NCBI GenBank assembly: GCA_017514905.1
Contig: JAFWIK010000011.1
Location: forward strand, 1-61,007
Reading direction: 5' to 3'
From: Candidatus Saccharimonadota bacterium
GTDB lineage: Bacteria; Patescibacteriota; Saccharimonadia; Saccharimonadales; Saccharimonadaceae
Length of the DNA stretch: 61,007 nucleotides
Position 1 is the first letter of the stretch. Each line of letters begins with the position of its first letter. Under the pieces are notes generated by a model. It was not told the origin of the DNA. It saw only the letters and a list, made by a program, of their open reading frames with translations, and did not search any database. Below are positions 22,693 through 55,501 of the stretch, one piece after another. The position numbers and the translations under genes were made by a program.

Positions 22693-23661
22693 ATGAAAAT
22701 TACTTCCGAACAAGAAATGCTAGCCTTTGGCACACGCTTTGCCAAGCAAGTTTATAACTACAGCACGCCTAAAGGAGAGAAAAAAACGCAGGCAAGCCCA
22801 TCCAATGCGGCCATCGTCATTGAACTAATCGGTGACGTCGGCGCCGGTAAAACCACTTTTGTACGTGGCTTTGCCAAAGGACTTGGCATCAACAGCCCTG
22901 TTACCAGTCCTAGCTATACTATCTCAAAAACCTACGCTTTACCTCACGACGGCGAACTCGTCCATTATGATTTTTACCGTCTCGAAGATCCTGGTCTCAT
23001 GGCCAATAATTTAGATGAAGCCATCAAGGACAATTCGATTGTCGTGGTTGAATGGGGAAAATCCGTCCAAAACATTTTACCCAAAAATCGTATCACTATC
23101 TCGATCAAATTGCAGGATGATAATTCCCGGAAACTAATAATTAGAAACAATTGTAATGGTACTTCTCGGGGGCTTCCGGAGGTTACGACCGACCGCTGTA
23201 GGAGACGAAGCATAAAAAACAAAGTTTTTCATACTAAGTCGACGCCCAGCGGACGACCCGTCAGGGTCGAGGATGAGGGCTTGGTCCCCGTGACGACGGG
23301 CGCGAGCGACCCGTCCCCCGAAAGTACCTTACAATTGTTTCTAGACACTAGTACTCCGGAAACCATTTTAAAGTTGAATGACCACGAATATCGACATATT
23401 TTCGCAAATGATCTTGCCGAAAAATTACTCGAATTCATTAAAGAGAAACTCACTGAAAATGGCAAAACCTGGCAGGACGTCACTAAAATTATTTTCATGT
23501 CCGGCCCCGGCTCGTTTACTGGTCTTCGCATTGGCGCTAGTGTAGTTAATGCTCTCGCTCACGAACTAAACATTCCGCTTTACGATCATCACGGGGAAAG
23601 GCATCCCATCATTTTACCAGACTACGGCCGTCCCGCCAATATCGGTAAACCCAAAAAATAG
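22693..23661 (+). CDS. tsaE: TsaE-TsaB fusion (tRNA t6A synthesis)
   Basis: This 322-residue protein joins two components of the threonylcarbamoyladenosine (t6A) machinery. Residues 1 to about 145 are the TsaE ATPase: GDVGAGKTTFVRGFAKGLG (P-loop), SPSYTISKTY and LVHYDFYRLEDP. From about residue 215 the start of TsaB follows: LFLDTSTPETIL, then SGPGSFTGLRIGASVVNALAH. Only about 110 residues of TsaB are present against a usual 200-230, so its C-terminal half is missing or encoded elsewhere. The junction is occupied by the palindromic element at 23142-23343, read in frame. It is possible that the element itself created the fusion. Confidence 0.8.
   Translation: MKITSEQEMLAFGTRFAKQVYNYSTPKGEKKTQASPSNAAIVIELIGDVGAGKTTFVRGFAKGLGINSPVTSPSYTISKTYALPHDGELVHYDFYRLEDPGLMANNLDEAIKDNSIVVVEWGKSVQNILPKNRITISIKLQDDNSRKLIIRNNCNGTSRGLPEVTTDRCRRRSIKNKVFHTKSTPSGRPVRVEDEGLVPVTTGASDPSPESTLQLFLDTSTPETILKLNDHEYRHIFANDLAEKLLEFIKEKLTENGKTWQDVTKIIFMSGPGSFTGLRIGASVVNALAHELNIPLYDHHGERHPIILPDYGRPANIGKPKK
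23142..23343 (+). repeat. GC-rich palindromic element, copy T (in tsaE-tsaB)
   Basis: Locus-specific arms of 15 bp match perfectly (TAGAAACAATTGTAA and its complement) and continue as GGTAC/GTACC and CGGGGG/CCCCCG with two single-base bulges. The core contains CTTCCGGAGGTTACGACC, CCCCGTGACGACGGG and GCGAGCGACCCGTCC, as in the lepA copy. An extra module of about 75 nt with its own hairpins (CCGCT/AGCGG and AAAAAC/GTTTTT) is inserted after ACGACCGA. Confidence 0.85.
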
Positions 23662-25784: not shown

Positions 25785-27644
25785 TTAGTTTCTTTTCAGC
25801 ATCACAGTAAAAGCTTCTGCAGGGATATCTATCTTACCAAATCTCTTCATTCGCGCTTTGCCTCGTTTCTGCTTATTCAAAAGTTTCGCCTTGCGATCTC
25901 GGTCACCTGTATGAATTTTGACTGTCACATCCTTGCGATACGCACCAATCGTCTCTCGCGCAATTATTCTCGCTCCAATCGCCGCTTGAAGTGCCACTTC
26001 ATAGTTTTGACGTGGAATGATCTCCTTCAACTTTTTCGTCACGTCTCGGCCAATCGCCTCTGCCTCTGCCCGATGTGCTACCACTGATAATGCATCCATT
26101 TTATGTCCCCCTACCAAAAAATCAATCCGCACCAAATCCCCTGCTTGATAGCCTTTTAATTCATAATTAAATGAAGCATAGCCCGACGTCACCGACTTTA
26201 ACTGATCATAAAAATCCGTAAGTAAATTCGCCATCGGTGCTTCAAAATCAATAATAGCCCGATCTTCAATATAGCTTAAATTAGTCTGATGTCCTCGTCT
26301 CTCGTTAATCAAATTTAGTACATTGCCAATCATTGGTTTCGGCAAAATTATCTCCCCCTTTGCCCACGGCTCTCGAATTTCCAAAATCTCCGACGCATCC
26401 GGTAACTCCGCCGCTGATTTGATTTCTCGTACCTCACCATTATTCATTACCACTTCATAATTTGTCGACGGATTCGTCACAATTAAATCTAATTTAAACT
26501 CTCGTTCAAGTCTCTCCTTAATAATATCTAAATGTAAAAGTCCCAAAAATCCGATTCTAAGTCCAAACCCTAAAATAGGTGAATTTTCCGGCTCAAACTC
26601 TAGCGCCGAATCCGACAAACTTAGTTTTTCAATCGCCTCTTTTAGCCCTTTATATTGATCGTTCGAAACAGGGAAAAACCCGGCATATACAAACGGCACC
26701 ACATGCTTATAGCCTGGCAAAGCCACTTCCGCCGGATTCTTTAAAAGTGTTACTGTGTCACCAACTCGCGCTTCCCTGGTTGATTTCAAATTCGTCACGA
26801 TATAGCCAATTTCTCCTACCTCTAATTCCTCCTGAGGAGTCATTTTTGGAGTCAAAAAACCTACCTCAAGTGCCTCGCCTCTGGTTTTTGTTCCCATCAT
26901 CCAAATCTCAGCATTTTTCGGAATTTCCCCCTCAAATACCCGTACGTACAAGACTACGCCCCGATAATCATCAAAATATGAATCAAATATCAATGCCCTC
27001 GTAGGCCCAGAGCCAAGGATTATTTCAGGGGACGGGTCGCTCGCTCCCGTCGTCACGGGGCTCGCGCCCTCATCCTCGGTCGTAACCTCCGGAAGCCCCC
27101 GAAACAACCTTGGCTCTGGCCCCCAATCAATAATTGCATCCAAGATTTTATCCACGCCTACGCCAGTCTTACCAGAAACTTCAATTATTTCCTTTCGCTC
27201 ACAACCTAACAAATTCATTATCTGTGCCGCAACTTTATCTACGTCTGCCGCCGGTAAATCAATTTTGTTAATCACCGGAATAATTTTGAGGTCTTGTTCT
27301 AAAGCTAAATACACATTCGCGAGCGTCTGCGCCTGAATTCCCTGCGTCGCGTCCACCACCAGAACCACCGTTTCCACCGCCGCAAGCGACCTCGATACCT
27401 CATACGAAAAATCCACATGTCCTGGCGTATCAATCAAATTCAAGATAAAACCTTTCCAATGCATCGTCACTGGAGTTAGCTTTATCGTAATCCCTTTCTC
27501 ACGCTCTAGTTCCATCGAATCGAGTAGCTGCGACTTCATCTCGCGCTTCGCTACCGTCCCCGTGAGCTCCATCATCCGATCCGCAATCGTGGATTTCCCA
27601 TGATCAATATGCGCAATGATGCAAAAATTCCGTATCTTTTCCAT
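25785..27644 (-). CDS. lepA: Elongation factor 4 (LepA) with an in-frame palindromic insertion
   Basis: This 619-residue translational GTPase has AHIDHGKST (G1), IDTPGHVDF (G3) and INKIDLPAAD (G4), followed by the domain II-V and C-terminal parts of LepA (GFLGLLHLDIIKERLEREF, then the end KLLNKQKRGKARMKRFG). LepA back-translocates or remodels stalled ribosomes. It is about 20 residues longer than E. coli LepA because an insertion with RGLPEVTTEDEG and SPVTTGASDPSPE lies between the G domain and domain II, just before TRALIFDSYFDDYRG. This corresponds to the palindromic element at 27007-27119. A TTGCTT-17-TATAAT promoter ends 8 bp before the ATG. Confidence 0.95.
   Translation of the reverse strand: MEKIRNFCIIAHIDHGKSTIADRMMELTGTVAKREMKSQLLDSMELEREKGITIKLTPVTMHWKGFILNLIDTPGHVDFSYEVSRSLAAVETVVLVVDATQGIQAQTLANVYLALEQDLKIIPVINKIDLPAADVDKVAAQIMNLLGCERKEIIEVSGKTGVGVDKILDAIIDWGPEPRLFRGLPEVTTEDEGASPVTTGASDPSPEIILGSGPTRALIFDSYFDDYRGVVLYVRVFEGEIPKNAEIWMMGTKTRGEALEVGFLTPKMTPQEELEVGEIGYIVTNLKSTREARVGDTVTLLKNPAEVALPGYKHVVPFVYAGFFPVSNDQYKGLKEAIEKLSLSDSALEFEPENSPILGFGLRIGFLGLLHLDIIKERLEREFKLDLIVTNPSTNYEVVMNNGEVREIKSAAELPDASEILEIREPWAKGEIILPKPMIGNVLNLINERRGHQTNLSYIEDRAIIDFEAPMANLLTDFYDQLKSVTSGYASFNYELKGYQAGDLVRIDFLVGGHKMDALSVVAHRAEAEAIGRDVTKKLKEIIPRQNYEVALQAAIGARIIARETIGAYRKDVTVKIHTGDRDRKAKLLNKQKRGKARMKRFGKIDIPAEAFTVMLKRN
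27007..27119 (-). repeat. GC-rich palindromic element, copy L (in lepA)
   Basis: The arms are CCAGAGCCAAGG and its exact complement, extended by about 12 more pairs using G-U wobbles on the mRNA strand. The 113-bp copy is the shortest and simplest. Its core, read with the gene, forms GGT-TACG-ACC, GGGC-GCGA-GCCC and CCCG-TGACGA-CGGG hairpins. The frame continues without a stop through lepA. Confidence 0.88.
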
Positions 27645-30964: not shown

Positions 30965-31207
30965 TTGGGAAAACTTCAGGTATATCGACTAAAGCGTTTA
31001 TAACTATTTTCAGGACATTTCGGAGGTCACGACCGAGAATTAGGGCTTGGTCCCCGTGACGACCGTCGCAGGAGCCGAGCAGACGGAAAGCTTGCTTTCC
31101 GTATCGAGGCGACGCCCGACGGACGACCTTTGGTCGACGGGAGCGAGCGACCCGTGTCCTGGAAATATGTTATAAACGCTTTATTCAGATATATCTGCCG
31201 TCTTCCC
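30965..31207 (-). repeat. GC-rich palindromic element, copy P (pnp leader)
   Basis: Perfect 14-bp arms AAAGCGTTTATAAC (30991-31004 and complement to 31182) continue inward to GGACA/TGTCC and outward, with mismatches, through TATATC to TTGGGAA/TTCCCAA. The core shares CGGAGGTCACGACCGA, CCCCGTGACGAC and GCGAGCGACCCGT with the other copies. It carries an extra module with the hairpin ACGGAAAGC-TT-GCTTTCCGT. This is the only copy outside a coding region. Confidence 0.85.
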
Positions 31208-34462: not shown

Positions 34463-35251
34463 ATGGATGAAAATCAGATCATATTAATCGATAAGCCCGC
34501 CGACATTTCTAGCTTTGGTGTAGTTGCTAAGGTTCGCGGCTTTCTCAAGGCTCAGTTTAATCACAAAATCAAAGTCGGTCACACCGGAACGTTGGACCCC
34601 TTCGCCACCGGCCTCCTCATCATTTTGACTGGCAAAAACACCAAAAAATCTTCCGAGTTTCTCAAGCTCGACAAAATCTACGACGCCACCCTGAAGCTTG
34701 GTTACACTTCCACCACTGGCGACCCAGAGGGGCAGATTGTGCCATATAAAGAATCTGAAGAGCTTCAACGACATTTCAGTGAAGGGGGATTCCGGAGCGC
34801 GGCAGCGCGAGGATTAGCGCGCTCGCCCCGTGGCAGACCGCCCCTTGGGACGCGGACGACCCGAAGGGTCGACGGGCGCGAGCGACGCGACCCCGAACGA
34901 AATGTCGTTGAAGCTGCGATTAAATCATTTGTGGGTAAAATCACCCAAACTCCTCCCAGGTTCTCCGCCATCAAAGTAAACGGTGAGCGTGCTTACAAAC
35001 TCGCCAGAAAAGGCAAAAATTTTGAAATTCCCTCTCGCAAAGTCGAAATCTACAGCATTGATATCTTAGATTACCACTATCCCGAGCTCCAAATCCGCGT
35101 CCACTGCAGCTCCGGCACTTATATCCGCACCCTCGCCGAAGATATCGGCAAAAAACTCGGTACCGGCGCTTATCTCACTTCCCTTCGCCGTCTTAAAATC
35201 GGTAACTACGACGTCAGAAACGCCTTACCTCTCTCTCATTTCGCCAAATAG
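34463..35251 (+). CDS. truB: tRNA pseudouridine-55 synthase TruB with an in-frame palindromic insertion
   Basis: This 262-residue protein has IDKPADISSFGVVAKVR at the start, the catalytic HTGTLDPFATGLL with its Asp, LGYTSTTGDPEG, and the later TPPRFSAIKVNGERAYKLARKG and CSSGTYIRTLAEDIG. TruB makes pseudouridine 55 in the T loop of tRNAs. The palindromic element at 34761-34915 adds about 45 residues rich in Arg, Gly and Pro between EELQRHF and VVEAAIKSFVGK, a surface loop before a helix. The C-terminal RNA-binding extension is absent. The start at 34463 is chosen because TAATAT ends 7 bp before; a GTG-type upstream extension to 34427 is not supported. Confidence 0.93.
   Translation: MDENQIILIDKPADISSFGVVAKVRGFLKAQFNHKIKVGHTGTLDPFATGLLIILTGKNTKKSSEFLKLDKIYDATLKLGYTSTTGDPEGQIVPYKESEELQRHFSEGGFRSAAARGLARSPRGRPPLGTRTTRRVDGRERRDPERNVVEAAIKSFVGKITQTPPRFSAIKVNGERAYKLARKGKNFEIPSRKVEIYSIDILDYHYPELQIRVHCSSGTYIRTLAEDIGKKLGTGAYLTSLRRLKIGNYDVRNALPLSHFAK
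34761..34915 (+). repeat. GC-rich palindromic element, copy B (in truB)
   Basis: The arms AGCTTCAACGACATTTC and complement are perfect over 17 bp. The core is the most diverged but keeps TTCCGGAG, CGCCCCGTGGC, GGACGACCC-GAA-GGGTCGACGGG and GCGAGCGACGC. Differences from the lepA copy often preserve pairing (GCGC-GGCA-GCGC instead of GGT-TACG-ACC). The reading frame is shifted relative to the lepA, recX and tsaE-tsaB copies, yet contains no stop. Confidence 0.82.
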
Positions 35252-35868: not shown

Positions 35869-36653
35869 TCGCTTGTCTCTTTACACTCTTGCACCGTCTC
35901 TTTCACTAAATCATAGGGAAACCCTTGTCGCACCAAGTATTCAATTAGCTTCTCATCGTCATACTTTGCTCGTTTCTTATTAATCATCTTCAAAAGTTCT
36001 TCTTTGTCATCTCGTGCGTCCAACACTTCGTCAATAATCTCCCTCGAAACACCCTTTTTCATGAGCTCCATTCTTAGTCGCTTCTTCGAAATCCCCTTCT
36101 TCACAAAACGGTTTTCCACATAGTACTTCGCGAATGCCCGGTCGTCCAAATACCCCCGCACCGAAAGACGTTCTAATACCTTATCAGAAAGTCCAGAAAC
36201 TTCCCCTCGGACACGCTCGTCTCGGCCCGTCGTCACGGGCGAGACTTCGCTAACTCGCTCCCCGTTGGTCGCGAAATGTCCTCGGGAAATGTTTCTGGAC
36301 TTTCTAAACAAATAATCTCGCACCTCTTTTTCAGATCTTGGGCGTATCAATACCCACTCAAGCGTCCTCTGATATAGTTTGCCAAATTCACTCGCCCTTC
36401 TTAATTCCGCCAACTCGTCTTCAGACAATACTCTTCCAACCTTTAGCTTATAATCCACTACTTGTGCCACATCTAGCGAAAGCTCAAATTTACCGTTTAT
36501 AAACACATTCACTCGATTCGGATTCTTCACTCCTTGTTTCAAAGCCGTGATTTTAAAACCATCGACTTTTAAAGCTTCAGCTTCCGTTAAAGCGGAGTTT
36601 TCACTAGCTTTTTCCCGACTCGACCCTTCATCCTTTAGGCTAAAAATCTCCAT
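35865..36653 (-). CDS. recX: Regulatory protein RecX with an in-frame palindromic insertion
   Basis: This 262-residue protein carries RecX-type three-helix repeats: LYQRTLEWVLIRPRSEKEVRDYL, then LERLSVRGYLDDRAFAKYYVENR, and GVSREIIDEVLDA and ending LVRQGFPYDLVKETVQ. RecX modulates RecA filaments; recA lies two genes upstream in the same operon. The start at 36653 overlaps the Nudix stop by one base (TGATG), favouring it over an ATG at 36680. The element at 36186-36305 interrupts the first repeat after DYLFRK and adds about 38 residues, including SPVTTGRDERVRG. A long N-terminal segment before the repeats is also present. Confidence 0.85.
   Translation of the reverse strand: MEIFSLKDEGSSREKASENSALTEAEALKVDGFKITALKQGVKNPNRVNVFINGKFELSLDVAQVVDYKLKVGRVLSEDELAELRRASEFGKLYQRTLEWVLIRPRSEKEVRDYLFRKSRNISRGHFATNGERVSEVSPVTTGRDERVRGEVSGLSDKVLERLSVRGYLDDRAFAKYYVENRFVKKGISKKRLRMELMKKGVSREIIDEVLDARDDKEELLKMINKKRAKYDDEKLIEYLVRQGFPYDLVKETVQECKETSD
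36186..36305 (-). repeat. GC-rich palindromic element, copy R (in recX)
   Basis: The arms AGAAAGTCCAGAAAC and complement are perfect over 15 bp, continuing to TTTCCC/GGGGAA and GGACA/TGTCC. The core on the recX strand keeps GGACATTTCG (as in copy P) and the CCCG-TGACGA-CGGG hairpin. The translated SPVTTG matches the frame used in the lepA copy (and VPVTTG in tsaE-tsaB). Confidence 0.85.
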
Positions 36654-52619: not shown

Positions 52620-53243
52620 ATGGAAGATAAGATCTCTACAATCAAAAATTGGCTCGGCACCGGCAGTATCAATCTATTTGGTCTACCTATGTCCGGCAAA
52701 GACACCCAAGGCATTAAGCTCGCAAAAGCTTTAAATGCGAAATTTCTATCCTCTGGCATGATTATTCGTGCCATGGAAGAATCCAATCAAAAAAACTATA
52801 CAGGCAAAGGAAATCTTCTTCCGACTAGTCTTTTTTATGAATGGGTTTTACCATATTTTGAACGTAAAGATCTCTTTAATTATCCACTAGTTCTTTCTTC
52901 AATCGGTCGTTGGCATGGTGAAGAGCTTCAAGTTATGTCTGTCGCCGCTGGCGCCAATCACGAAATCAAAGCTGTCATTGTTCTTAATATTTCCGAAGCC
53001 GACGTCGAGAAACGCTTCAAAGAAGCTAAATCCTTAAACGATCGTGGCTCTCGCGCCGACGACAAATCACTCGAAATCTTCAAAACCCGGCTCCAGGAAT
53101 TCCGCACCAAGACTATACCAGTACTCAAATACTACCATGATCTCAATCTTCTCATCACCGTTAACGGCAATCAAACTCGTGAAGCCGTCTTTAATGAAAT
53201 AATCGACAAACTCTACGCCAAAGCTTTGCAATCTCGTGTCTAA
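52620..53243 (+). CDS. Adenylate-kinase-like nucleoside monophosphate kinase
   Basis: This 207-residue protein has an altered P-loop FGLPMSGKDTQGIKLAKAL (adenylate kinase normally GxPGSGKGTQ), an NMP-binding-like SSGMIIRAM, and a LID/Arg segment RGSRADDKSLEIFKTRL corresponding to the GRxDD signature. The fold is therefore that of adenylate kinase, although the changes may alter specificity. TATAAT ends 6 bp before the ATG. The last 53 bp overlap, on the opposite strand, the end of the lamin-tail gene at 53191. Confidence 0.8.
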   Translation: MEDKISTIKNWLGTGSINLFGLPMSGKDTQGIKLAKALNAKFLSSGMIIRAMEESNQKNYTGKGNLLPTSLFYEWVLPYFERKDLFNYPLVLSSIGRWHGEELQVMSVAAGANHEIKAVIVLNISEADVEKRFKEAKSLNDRGSRADDKSLEIFKTRLQEFRTKTIPVLKYYHDLNLLITVNGNQTREAVFNEIIDKLYAKALQSRV

Positions 53244-54735
53244 ATTCGTACACTAAATAGATTAATCCCAAAACCGCCACGCCTATTACGGCATACAGGC
53301 CCGTAAAAGATGAGCTTTCTTCATAAGTTTCTGGCACCAAACTATAATCCGCGCCACTATTCTCTTTCATTTTCCGACAACGATTCGTTTCTGGATTCAA
53401 ATAGTATCCTTCTTTACAAGTTTTTTTAGTCTTAGTTCCAATTTTCTTGCATCTGCCAGTTAAAGGATTCAAATACTGCCCTTTTTTGCAAGTCTTTTTG
53501 TTCTTTGTTTCAAGCTTCCTACATCTGCCAGTTGTAGAGTTTAGATAATAGCCTTTTTTACATGTTTTCTGAGTTTTAGCTTCAATTTTCTTGCATCTAT
53601 CAGTTAAAGGATTCAAATACTGTCCCTCTTCACAGACTTTTTCTTTCACCTCCGAAACTTTCACGCAATTTCCTGTAATCTTATTTATTACTTTACCCTT
53701 CTCGCAAGTTTTAAATTCTTGATAGTTATTCGACTGCCCCGGTGTCGGTGTATAAGTCATTCGCCAAATCGGCTCTCCCTTTTTATCGTATTGAATTAAA
53801 GCATACGCCGTGCCCTTCCTTTGCCCATTTGAATAGCCCACCGTGTCCACCACCTTTTCGTCAACATCAATCAGTTCCAAAATATTCTGATTAGTTGGAT
53901 TTTTTGTGAGGCTAAATTCACGCGGATAATACACATAGTATTCTCTCGGTTTAATTGTCCCCTTCAAAACATACTGCTTATTTTTATATCGAATCGAACA
54001 ACCATTCATTATAATCGCTTCTGCACTCGGATTATAAAACTCAATAAACTGTTCTGACCGCAACGACTCATAGTAACTTAAAATTTCTGAAAATCTTAGC
54101 TTTTCGCACTGACTTCCTTTTTTCTGCTCTTCTCCTTCCTCTTCCTCTTCTTTTTCTTCTAACGGTCCATTTAGAACATAGCTCTTATCGTCGTAATCTG
54201 GTTCATAACTCTCCAAATGCTCAAATGAACCAGTCTCCAAATCCCGCACCAAAGTAGTTGGCTTCGTCGACTTAAACTCTTTATAACAATCATCTTTTCC
54301 AGTCCAGCAAACCTCATCCAAAACTTTTTCGCCCAATTTCAATTTTAATCCACCCGTCATCGCTAACGTCTTGGTATAATTCACGGCGGCTAGCTCGTAC
54401 TCTGGCGAGCTAGCCAAACGAAGGAGGATGGTCTCGCCGGTCATCAAACTGTTCTCGGGAAATTCTAACAACGTAGAATAGTTCCCGCTTGAGTTAGTAT
54501 AGCCTACAGTTAGGCCAGCGAGCAAAATCGGTGTGTCGGAGTTTTTCCGGGCAATTTCAATCATCTCCCCGACATTTGACGTACCATTGACTACATATCC
54601 CGGATTAACCGCCTTGATATATATTTCTGGTATTTCTTTCGTAATAATACCTTCTGCCTTAGTAGCAATTATCCCACCCCATCCTGCGATTATTGACCCT
54701 ACTATTATGATTAAAATAATTAAAAATTTTCTCAT
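53191..54735 (-). CDS. Surface protein with lamin-tail domain and cysteine repeats
   Basis: This 514-residue protein starts MRKFLIILII at 54735 with a signal segment. A lamin-tail (LTD) domain spans about residues 210-350 (LRFSEILSYYES, FIEFYNPSAEAI, TYTPTPGQSNN). Then come five repeats of about 24 residues with the pattern C-x-x-G-x-Y-L-N-x-x-T-x-R-C-x-K, each with two cysteines. A membrane helix (about 478-498) and a short basic tail end the protein. The upstream in-frame extension to 54810 overlaps the divergent promoter and is rejected. The final codons overlap the end of the adenylate-kinase-like gene. Confidence 0.75.
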   Translation of the reverse strand: MRKFLIILIIIVGSIIAGWGGIIATKAEGIITKEIPEIYIKAVNPGYVVNGTSNVGEMIEIARKNSDTPILLAGLTVGYTNSSGNYSTLLEFPENSLMTGETILLRLASSPEYELAAVNYTKTLAMTGGLKLKLGEKVLDEVCWTGKDDCYKEFKSTKPTTLVRDLETGSFEHLESYEPDYDDKSYVLNGPLEEKEEEEEGEEQKKGSQCEKLRFSEILSYYESLRSEQFIEFYNPSAEAIIMNGCSIRYKNKQYVLKGTIKPREYYVYYPREFSLTKNPTNQNILELIDVDEKVVDTVGYSNGQRKGTAYALIQYDKKGEPIWRMTYTPTPGQSNNYQEFKTCEKGKVINKITGNCVKVSEVKEKVCEEGQYLNPLTDRCKKIEAKTQKTCKKGYYLNSTTGRCRKLETKNKKTCKKGQYLNPLTGRCKKIGTKTKKTCKEGYYLNPETNRCRKMKENSGADYSLVPETYEESSSFTGLYAVIGVAVLGLIYLVYEFRHEIAKLWRRVCRLFH

Positions 54736-54796
54736 GACACGACACGCTAGCACAGTCCCACTAGAAATGCAACCCCCTTCATGATATAATAAAACC

Positions 54797-55501
54797 ATGA
54801 GCATTTTCACCTCTTTTAGTATTATTATCGCTGCTATGCTTATTCTAGGTTTTTCACAATTATCTTCCGGTGTTTTGGCACTTCAAACCCATTACGCTCT
54901 TGGTAAATTCAGTAGGTCCAAAGCCTCAAGCCTAGCACTTTTTTTCATCCTTGGCGTCGTCATTCTCTCTATTTGCTTCTTCGTATCTATCTATTTCCTA
55001 ATTTCAATTCTCTCTCTGAGCAACCAAATAGTGTTTAACCAAATTACCATCTGGATCTTTGGCAGTATTTTTATTACTCTAGCATTATTCTGTCTCTTAT
55101 TTTATTATCGCCGTGACAAAAATAGCCAGCTCTTTATTCCTAGATCTCTAGCTAAAGCTCTCGGCCACGACGCCGCTTCCATCCGAACTAGGCCAAATGC
55201 CACCAGGCTCGGTCTCTTTTCTTATTGTTGTGAGTTTTTCCTTACTCTCCCCCTCTACATCATTGTCTCCATCGCTCTATTCAAAATTGAAAACTTCGGT
55301 CTTCTTTCCATCTTTCTAGCAATTCTTTTCATACTTGCGCCCACCATACCACTTTTCCTTATTCTTTTAGAATACCATTCCGGTTTTAATCTCGCCGATA
55401 TTTTAAAGAATCGCATCAAAAACAAACCTTTCATTCGCATTCTTTTAAGCTTTTGCTTTTTTATCATCGCCGCATTAATTATTTATTCGGGGACATTCTA
55501 A
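54797..55501 (+). CDS. Polytopic membrane protein of unknown function
   Basis: This 234-residue protein has about six predicted membrane helices and little hydrophilic sequence except a basic loop around residues 104-138 (YYRRDKNSQLFIPRSLAKAL). No transport motif is recognised. TATAAT ends exactly 6 bp before the ATG. The stop overlaps the next start (TAATG), so it is coupled to the 79-residue protein and the flavoprotein in a three-gene operon. Confidence 0.6.
   Translation: MSIFTSFSIIIAAMLILGFSQLSSGVLALQTHYALGKFSRSKASSLALFFILGVVILSICFFVSIYFLISILSLSNQIVFNQITIWIFGSIFITLALFCLLFYYRRDKNSQLFIPRSLAKALGHDAASIRTRPNATRLGLFSYCCEFFLTLPLYIIVSIALFKIENFGLLSIFLAILFILAPTIPLFLILLEYHSGFNLADILKNRIKNKPFIRILLSFCFFIIAALIIYSGTF

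Follow-up and report, generated by a model that had tools for sequence, protein, structure and literature searches.

In this Saccharibacteria genome (G000), tsaE and tsaB, two essential tRNA-modification genes, are joined into one open reading frame by a 201-nt palindrome, which is probably a member of a lineage-specific, GC-rich and structured family of mobile palindromes that enters protein genes in frame and behaves like the palindromic elements of Rickettsia. The features found in the window, i.e., the whole stretch of 61,007 nucleotides that was analysed, are collected in the table. The TsaB match covers residues 215-297 of the 322-aa ORF (Pfam/NCBIfam), and this ORF is the sole tsaE/tsaB match of the genome, element copies aside. 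The left outer arm of the palindrome (AGAAACAATTGTAA) is perfectly complementary to the right one (TTACAATTGTTTCT) and the pairing extends inwards, giving an outer helix of 31 bp around an inner part made of GC-rich branches; the fold reaches about -100 kcal/mol in context, and the GC content is 60% against 41% for the window. The first-pass annotation had placed the element at the TsaE-TsaB junction, in one frame with both genes, and had read its right arm as the start of TsaB (LQLFL); both points hold, the latter by alignment with M-K-L-Y-L-DTS of the relatives. It had also taken the left arm for the end of TsaE, which is mistaken: TsaE conservation stops ahead of this arm, with the residues DDNSRKLII. 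The arm itself translates as RNNCN, is the reverse complement of the first TsaB codons and is without counterpart at the TsaE end of the relatives.

Features of the window, with positions, strand and the evidence on which each one rests
Feature	Position	Strand	Evidence
TsaE-(element)-TsaB single ORF, 322 aa	22693..23661	+	ORF and domain matches
TsaE domain, residues 4-147	22702..23133	+	Pfam PF02367 1.9e-30; TIGR00150 1.2e-29
Whole palindromic element including arms, in-frame TsaE/TsaB link	23142..23343	+	sequence and fold
Left outer arm, inverted copy of the TsaB start codons	23143..23156	+	perfect complement of 23329-23342
Nested hairpin module, 78 nt, CGA before it and at its end	23193..23270	+	missing from other copies at the same site
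Right outer arm, host DNA, TsaB codons LQLFL	23329..23342	+	aligned with M-K-L-Y-L-DTS of relatives
Short TsaB domain	23329..23658	+	TIGR03725 2.2e-19; 55-79% identity to separate TsaB of relatives
Element copy in lepA, in frame, without nested module	27007..27119	-	DNA search, orthologue reading
Element copy in the 5' region of pnp, intergenic	30987..31186	+	DNA search, fold
Nested module in the pnp copy, 75 nt	31063..31137	+	different loop from the tsaE-tsaB copy
Element copy in truB, in frame, short nested module 34836-34872	34761..34915	+	covariance model
Variant-type element copy in recX, in frame	36196..36290	-	covariance model

Reading 39 tsaE/tsaB junctions, we found separate genes at 27 and fused genes at 12. 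In most relatives of the same genus the separate genes overlap at ATGA and hold no element, and separate tsaE and tsaB occupy different reading frames; in this genome the tsaE stop and the tsaB ATG are replaced by the element (ATG to TTA), and the right-arm codons TTA CAA TTG TTT CTA align with M K L Y L at the TsaB start of the relatives. In G267 and G071 the stem likewise runs into the TsaB codons, and the arm of each species matches its own codons. The present family sits at four fused junctions (G000, G006, G267 and G071), and unrelated palindromes sit at five others (G287, G072 and G289, one clade with a common palindrome; G178; G250). G294, the probable sister of this genome (85/73 in the TsaE+TsaB tree), has a fused gene whose linker aligns to the recX-type element with 29/35 identical positions, nearly all changes being G to A, and with a score of 23, where 500 shuffles reached at most 13; given this alignment, we read the linker as a decayed, A-rich copy of the element. 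Across the TsaE+TsaB tree the fused lineages are scattered and not in one place (the G287 clade adjoins unfused G001, G259 adjoins unfused G012, and G250 falls in the other main clade), so that the fusion arose several times, mostly along with a palindrome. Since fusions occur with the element, with other palindromes and without any, insertion of the element is likely to have caused the fusion in this genome and other routes to fusion exist. The earlier proposal that the insertion made the fusion by replacing stop and start codons is therefore well supported, most relatives having separate, element-free genes. The observation that the first-pass annotation had named as refuting it, the same fusion in relatives that lack the element, was made only in part: no palindrome is recognised at the fused junctions of G283 and G259, while the probable sister carries its decayed copy. 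It is worth recording, as a caveat to the tie between palindrome and fusion, that G018 (L033) has an unrelated palindrome (TTGAAATCCAAAAATG...CATTTTTGGATTTCAA) between separate tsaE and tsaB.

The core of the element recurs at about 20 places of the genome in a DNA search (700 kb, 26 contigs). From copies gathered by searches and in the stretches that were read, we built a covariance model (16 copies, 28 pairs), which at E <= 0.01 gives 42 matches in this genome and 26 in the related G006, and at E <= 0.001 gives matches in 59 of the 60 sampled genomes of the same genus (rumen/gut Saccharibacteria). Across the order, matches were obtained in 20 of 198 genomes, all from three genera (122 sampled) of one family, and among named genomes those picked up by a pattern scan were almost exclusively Candidatus Saccharibacteria from ruminant gut. 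Both sides have changed in 15 of the 28 pairs, with 60 double against 8 single-side changes; this is a repeat family with a conserved core structure. No match to the element came from the phage and plasmid records searched, and such a vehicle of spread was rejected on that ground. Separately, 2.9 million viral contigs held one match to the core pattern (L380, IMGVR_UViG_3300017989_000118), which may be due to chance or to a prophage or host fragment. Regarding enzymes, the Y1 transposase PF01797 (RAYT/IS200-type) was not found in this genome and is present in two of the 60 genomes of the genus, the other 58 being without it; no transposase or other mobilising enzyme was identified for the element. 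Our literature search, with most subscription journals outside its coverage, found no report of such repeats in Saccharibacteria, Patescibacteria or CPR.

Coding copies number at least 11 in this genome, in tsaE-tsaB, pheT, uvrC, lepA, gatB, der, polA, a cysteine desulfurase gene, trmD, priA and a DEDD exonuclease gene that resembles orn, and additional ones lie in truB, recX and obgE (the names truB and obgE rest on sequence only). All of these are in frame and both orientations are used, the element having open frames in both directions. In the named relatives, 47 of 79 copies fall within a frame that is free of stops and extends for 60 codons or more to each side, 22 of them oriented with the gene and 25 against it. 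Many essential proteins carry the copies in their loops and linkers, and the inserts are probably translated, to judge by their open frames. The remaining copies of this genome are intergenic, often straight after a stop codon; those at L003, L004, L009, L010, L011, L012, L014 and L020 are directly 3' of genes and, with an A-tract as left arm and a T-tract as right arm, look like bidirectional terminators. Two other observations belong here: tsaE has a second hotspot within the gene itself, with copies near residue 30 (G007:C10:64186-64281 and G065:C27:11099-11195), and the window holds a tandem 72-nt in-phase repeat of three copies (53396-53647) within the ORF 53191-54810 on the minus strand.

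The sites in lepA, der, polA, uvrC, gatB, trmD, priA and the desulfurase gene, read in eight relatives, are either empty or occupied, by the element in one or the other orientation or by unrelated palindromes, and the frame is always kept. For trmD, 71 genomes with the gene comprise 45 empty sites and 26 interrupted at the same codons, with an open reading frame in 26/26; folding energies are -2 to -15.5 kcal/mol for 22 empty sites and -38 to -112 kcal/mol for 23 occupied ones. The trmD site of G052 (L365), which was counted as empty, reads REFAFHSGLRPASHYI, like the left end of an element joined to host sequence, and is probably the scar of a lost element. A second large family of coding palindromes (GCTGAACCTGTTTTT...; GLEFSSTSYAGTPAEPSLRDEPVGSV) is seen at the same hotspots, in trmD of G259, G254 and G070 (L342, L344 and L341), in priA of G007 (L310) and in der of G018 (L260).

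The outer arms are different in each copy and yet match each other. In 19 copies of this genome the mean pairing energy is -24.5 kcal/mol for matched and -7.2 for swapped arms, and none of 20000 permutations was as good; chance pairing of the arms is excluded. The trmD copies mirror the arrangement at tsaE-tsaB, in that the left flank is host sequence (the codons for A-R-E-F-A) and the right arm pairs with it: the left 15 nt of occupied sites compare with empty sites at 0.598, empty with empty sites giving 0.599, and pairing of the right arm with the left flank of its site reaches -23.3 against -12.9 when swapped (again 0/20000 permutations as good). Large trmD inserts of other types (G003, G013, G046 and G056) have host-adjoining arms that pair no better than swapped ones. 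We relied on this duplex test of matched against swapped arms because short AT-rich windows match anyway in a comparison of 10-mers, where the reverse complement of the right arm gave no contrast with the left flanks of empty orthologues (best 10-mer, 6.56 vs 6.48). For the primary element no direct target duplication could be shown; direct repeats were not seen at the trmD insertion sites, which show an inverted copy of the flank instead. Some outer arms, as in der and uvrC, have conserved codons on either side, so that the copied side is not always distinguishable. One outer arm is host DNA and the other its inverted copy. The matched arms, the intact host flank on one side and the few G-U pairs in the outer stems (4-5%) point to fold-back (template-switch) synthesis; few G-U pairs fit copying, as compensatory selection, though it too keeps arms matched, would be expected to leave more of them. 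Template switching makes and maintains such perfect stems (PMC8794818).

The element is also built from modules. An extra module of about 75 nt absent from the lepA copy had been noted, with a related one elsewhere in the pnp copy; the former proves to be 78 nt long, and the latter, of 75 nt, is placed in another loop, the CCCGTGACGACGGG apical loop. Relatives of the module are found in pnp and obgE (both 75 nt, in a loop other than that of tsaE-tsaB) and, shortened, in truB, i.e., a family with four members that adjoin CGA, occupy two different positions in the primary element and have in common the sequence CGGACGACC...GGTCGA. The full-length sizes (78, 75 and 75 nt) are each a multiple of three, and a further insert type is common to the pheT and polA copies. 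Presence of this second-order module in different copies and in different loops means that hairpins do enter the loops of hairpins, which supports the idea, already put forward in the first-pass annotation, of modular growth by self-insertion.

It is probable that, at or soon after insertion, the 3' end of the element folds back onto its own 5' end and primes synthesis on the adjoining host strand, as an intrastrand template switch; such synthesis would add an inverted copy of the flank, lengthen the stem and keep the arms matched over time. Insertions would survive only where the frame is preserved and the loop is tolerant, and the element would in this way spread as translated selfish DNA. 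It is conceivable, and we put it forward with less than even confidence, that fold-back copying of the host flank, as an inverted target duplication, is part of the insertion step, and that many unrelated palindromes of the genus share this process at the same permissive sites. We consider it unlikely that the genes were fused beforehand, by a point change or a small deletion joining overlapping ORFs, and that palindromes later entered a tolerant linker. The two fused genomes with no recognisable palindrome and the three unrelated palindromes that occupy this junction in further fused genomes, as a permissive linker predicts, would suit that order of events; however, the arm starts exactly on the TsaB start codons in G000, G267 and G071, no fused element-free relative is found near this genome, whose probable sister has a decayed copy, and the separate genes are in different frames, so that a simple overlap does not fuse them.

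Compensatory selection, and not copying, would account for the matched arms if the palindrome were selected as an RNA device acting on mRNA stability, translational pausing or termination. The strong conserved structure with covariation and the terminator-like intergenic copies agree with such a role, but we hold it to be quite unlikely, as the same sites show gain, loss and replacement by unrelated palindromes, G-U pairs are rare (5%) while double outnumber single changes by 60 to 8, and genes carry the element in both orientations. Entry into ready-made inverted repeats such as terminators, which would make both outer arms old host sequence, is improbable in our view and mostly refuted at coding sites: intergenic copies do lie directly after genes with terminator-like A-tract and T-tract arms, but the 22 empty trmD sites are without a hairpin, and separate tsaE/tsaB junctions do not show the TsaB start repeated in inverted form. 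The great stability of these hairpins, their presence in essential genes and the way in which their arms draw the flanks together also recall inserts that are removed from the message (a self-splicing intron or an RNase III-type intervening sequence) or skipped by the ribosome, as in the translational bypass of the byp elements of Magnusiomyces mitochondria. We give this very little credence, since all coding copies examined are in frame and stop-free, which removal would not need, and the element has open frames both ways. A group I or II intron or a ribozyme was rejected, the Rfam scan of the window giving two tRNAs and no intron or ribozyme match. The preferred reading is a mobile palindrome that enters genes in frame, with fold-back synthesis as the probable source of its matched arms.

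The closest likeness is to the Rickettsia palindromic elements (RPE-1 to RPE-8 and others), of which different families occupy the same orthologue site, including in uvrC and pheT (PMC3767692; PMC10969869), and which reportedly lose repeat identity with time (PMC6649704). Like these, the present element is a palindrome of roughly 100-150 bp, dispersed in many copies (42 in G000, 26 in G006), inserted in frame and without destruction in unrelated housekeeping genes (11/11 coding copies; 26/26 for trmD) and also found between genes; in both cases different palindromes are seen at the same site and no mobilising enzyme has been identified. It differs by its GC-rich multi-branched core, its host-copied outer arms, its nested second-order module, the gene fusion and the phylum. 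Membership of RPE1 was rejected, as TIGR01045 gave no match over the cut-off in 20 genomes, and for ten host proteins no RPE model was among the NCBIfam matches. The REP sequences (GTAG and CGTC super-families) are likewise short structured palindromes, dispersed and partly intragenic, and the CGTC type is also without dedicated transposase (PMC3733652); they measure 20-40 bp, their stems are short and they carry an unpaired tag, whereas the present element has 95-200 nt, a branched core and a variable, long, site-specific outer stem. A REP/RAYT assignment was rejected in view of the rarity of the Y1 transposase (2/60 genomes) and of this size and structure, which are not those of a 20-40 bp single hairpin with a conserved tetranucleotide, and a MITE assignment likewise, as no shared terminal inverted repeats and, at trmD, no fixed-length direct target duplication were seen. 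In the mitochondria of Nematomorpha, long matched inverted repeats are translated within conserved genes, their arms being kept identical by a conversion-like process, and they are gained and lost between species (PMC6649704); these palindromes have no dispersed repeat core, whereas here the core is conserved and mobile and only the outer arms are host-derived. Reverse-complement copies of neighbouring sequence are the product of template-switch, or quasi-palindrome, mutation (PMC8794818), which is known as a mutation process but is not known to belong to the life cycle of any dispersed element.

Coding palindromes were previously known from Rickettsia and Wolbachia and, to our knowledge, their spread has never been explained. 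Saccharibacteria, with their very small genomes, are a second and apparently unrelated lineage in which such palindromes are frequent, and well over a hundred related genomes present the same site in several states (empty, occupied, decayed, nested). The inverted flank copy is a direct footprint of the mechanism, testable by sequence comparison alone. If insertion does include copying of the flank, the genus would possess a general activity that inserts palindromes, time and again fusing adjacent genes and placing hairpins within hairpins. The recurrent TsaE-TsaB fusions illustrate, on the preferred reading, how selfish DNA makes new protein architectures in an essential pathway.
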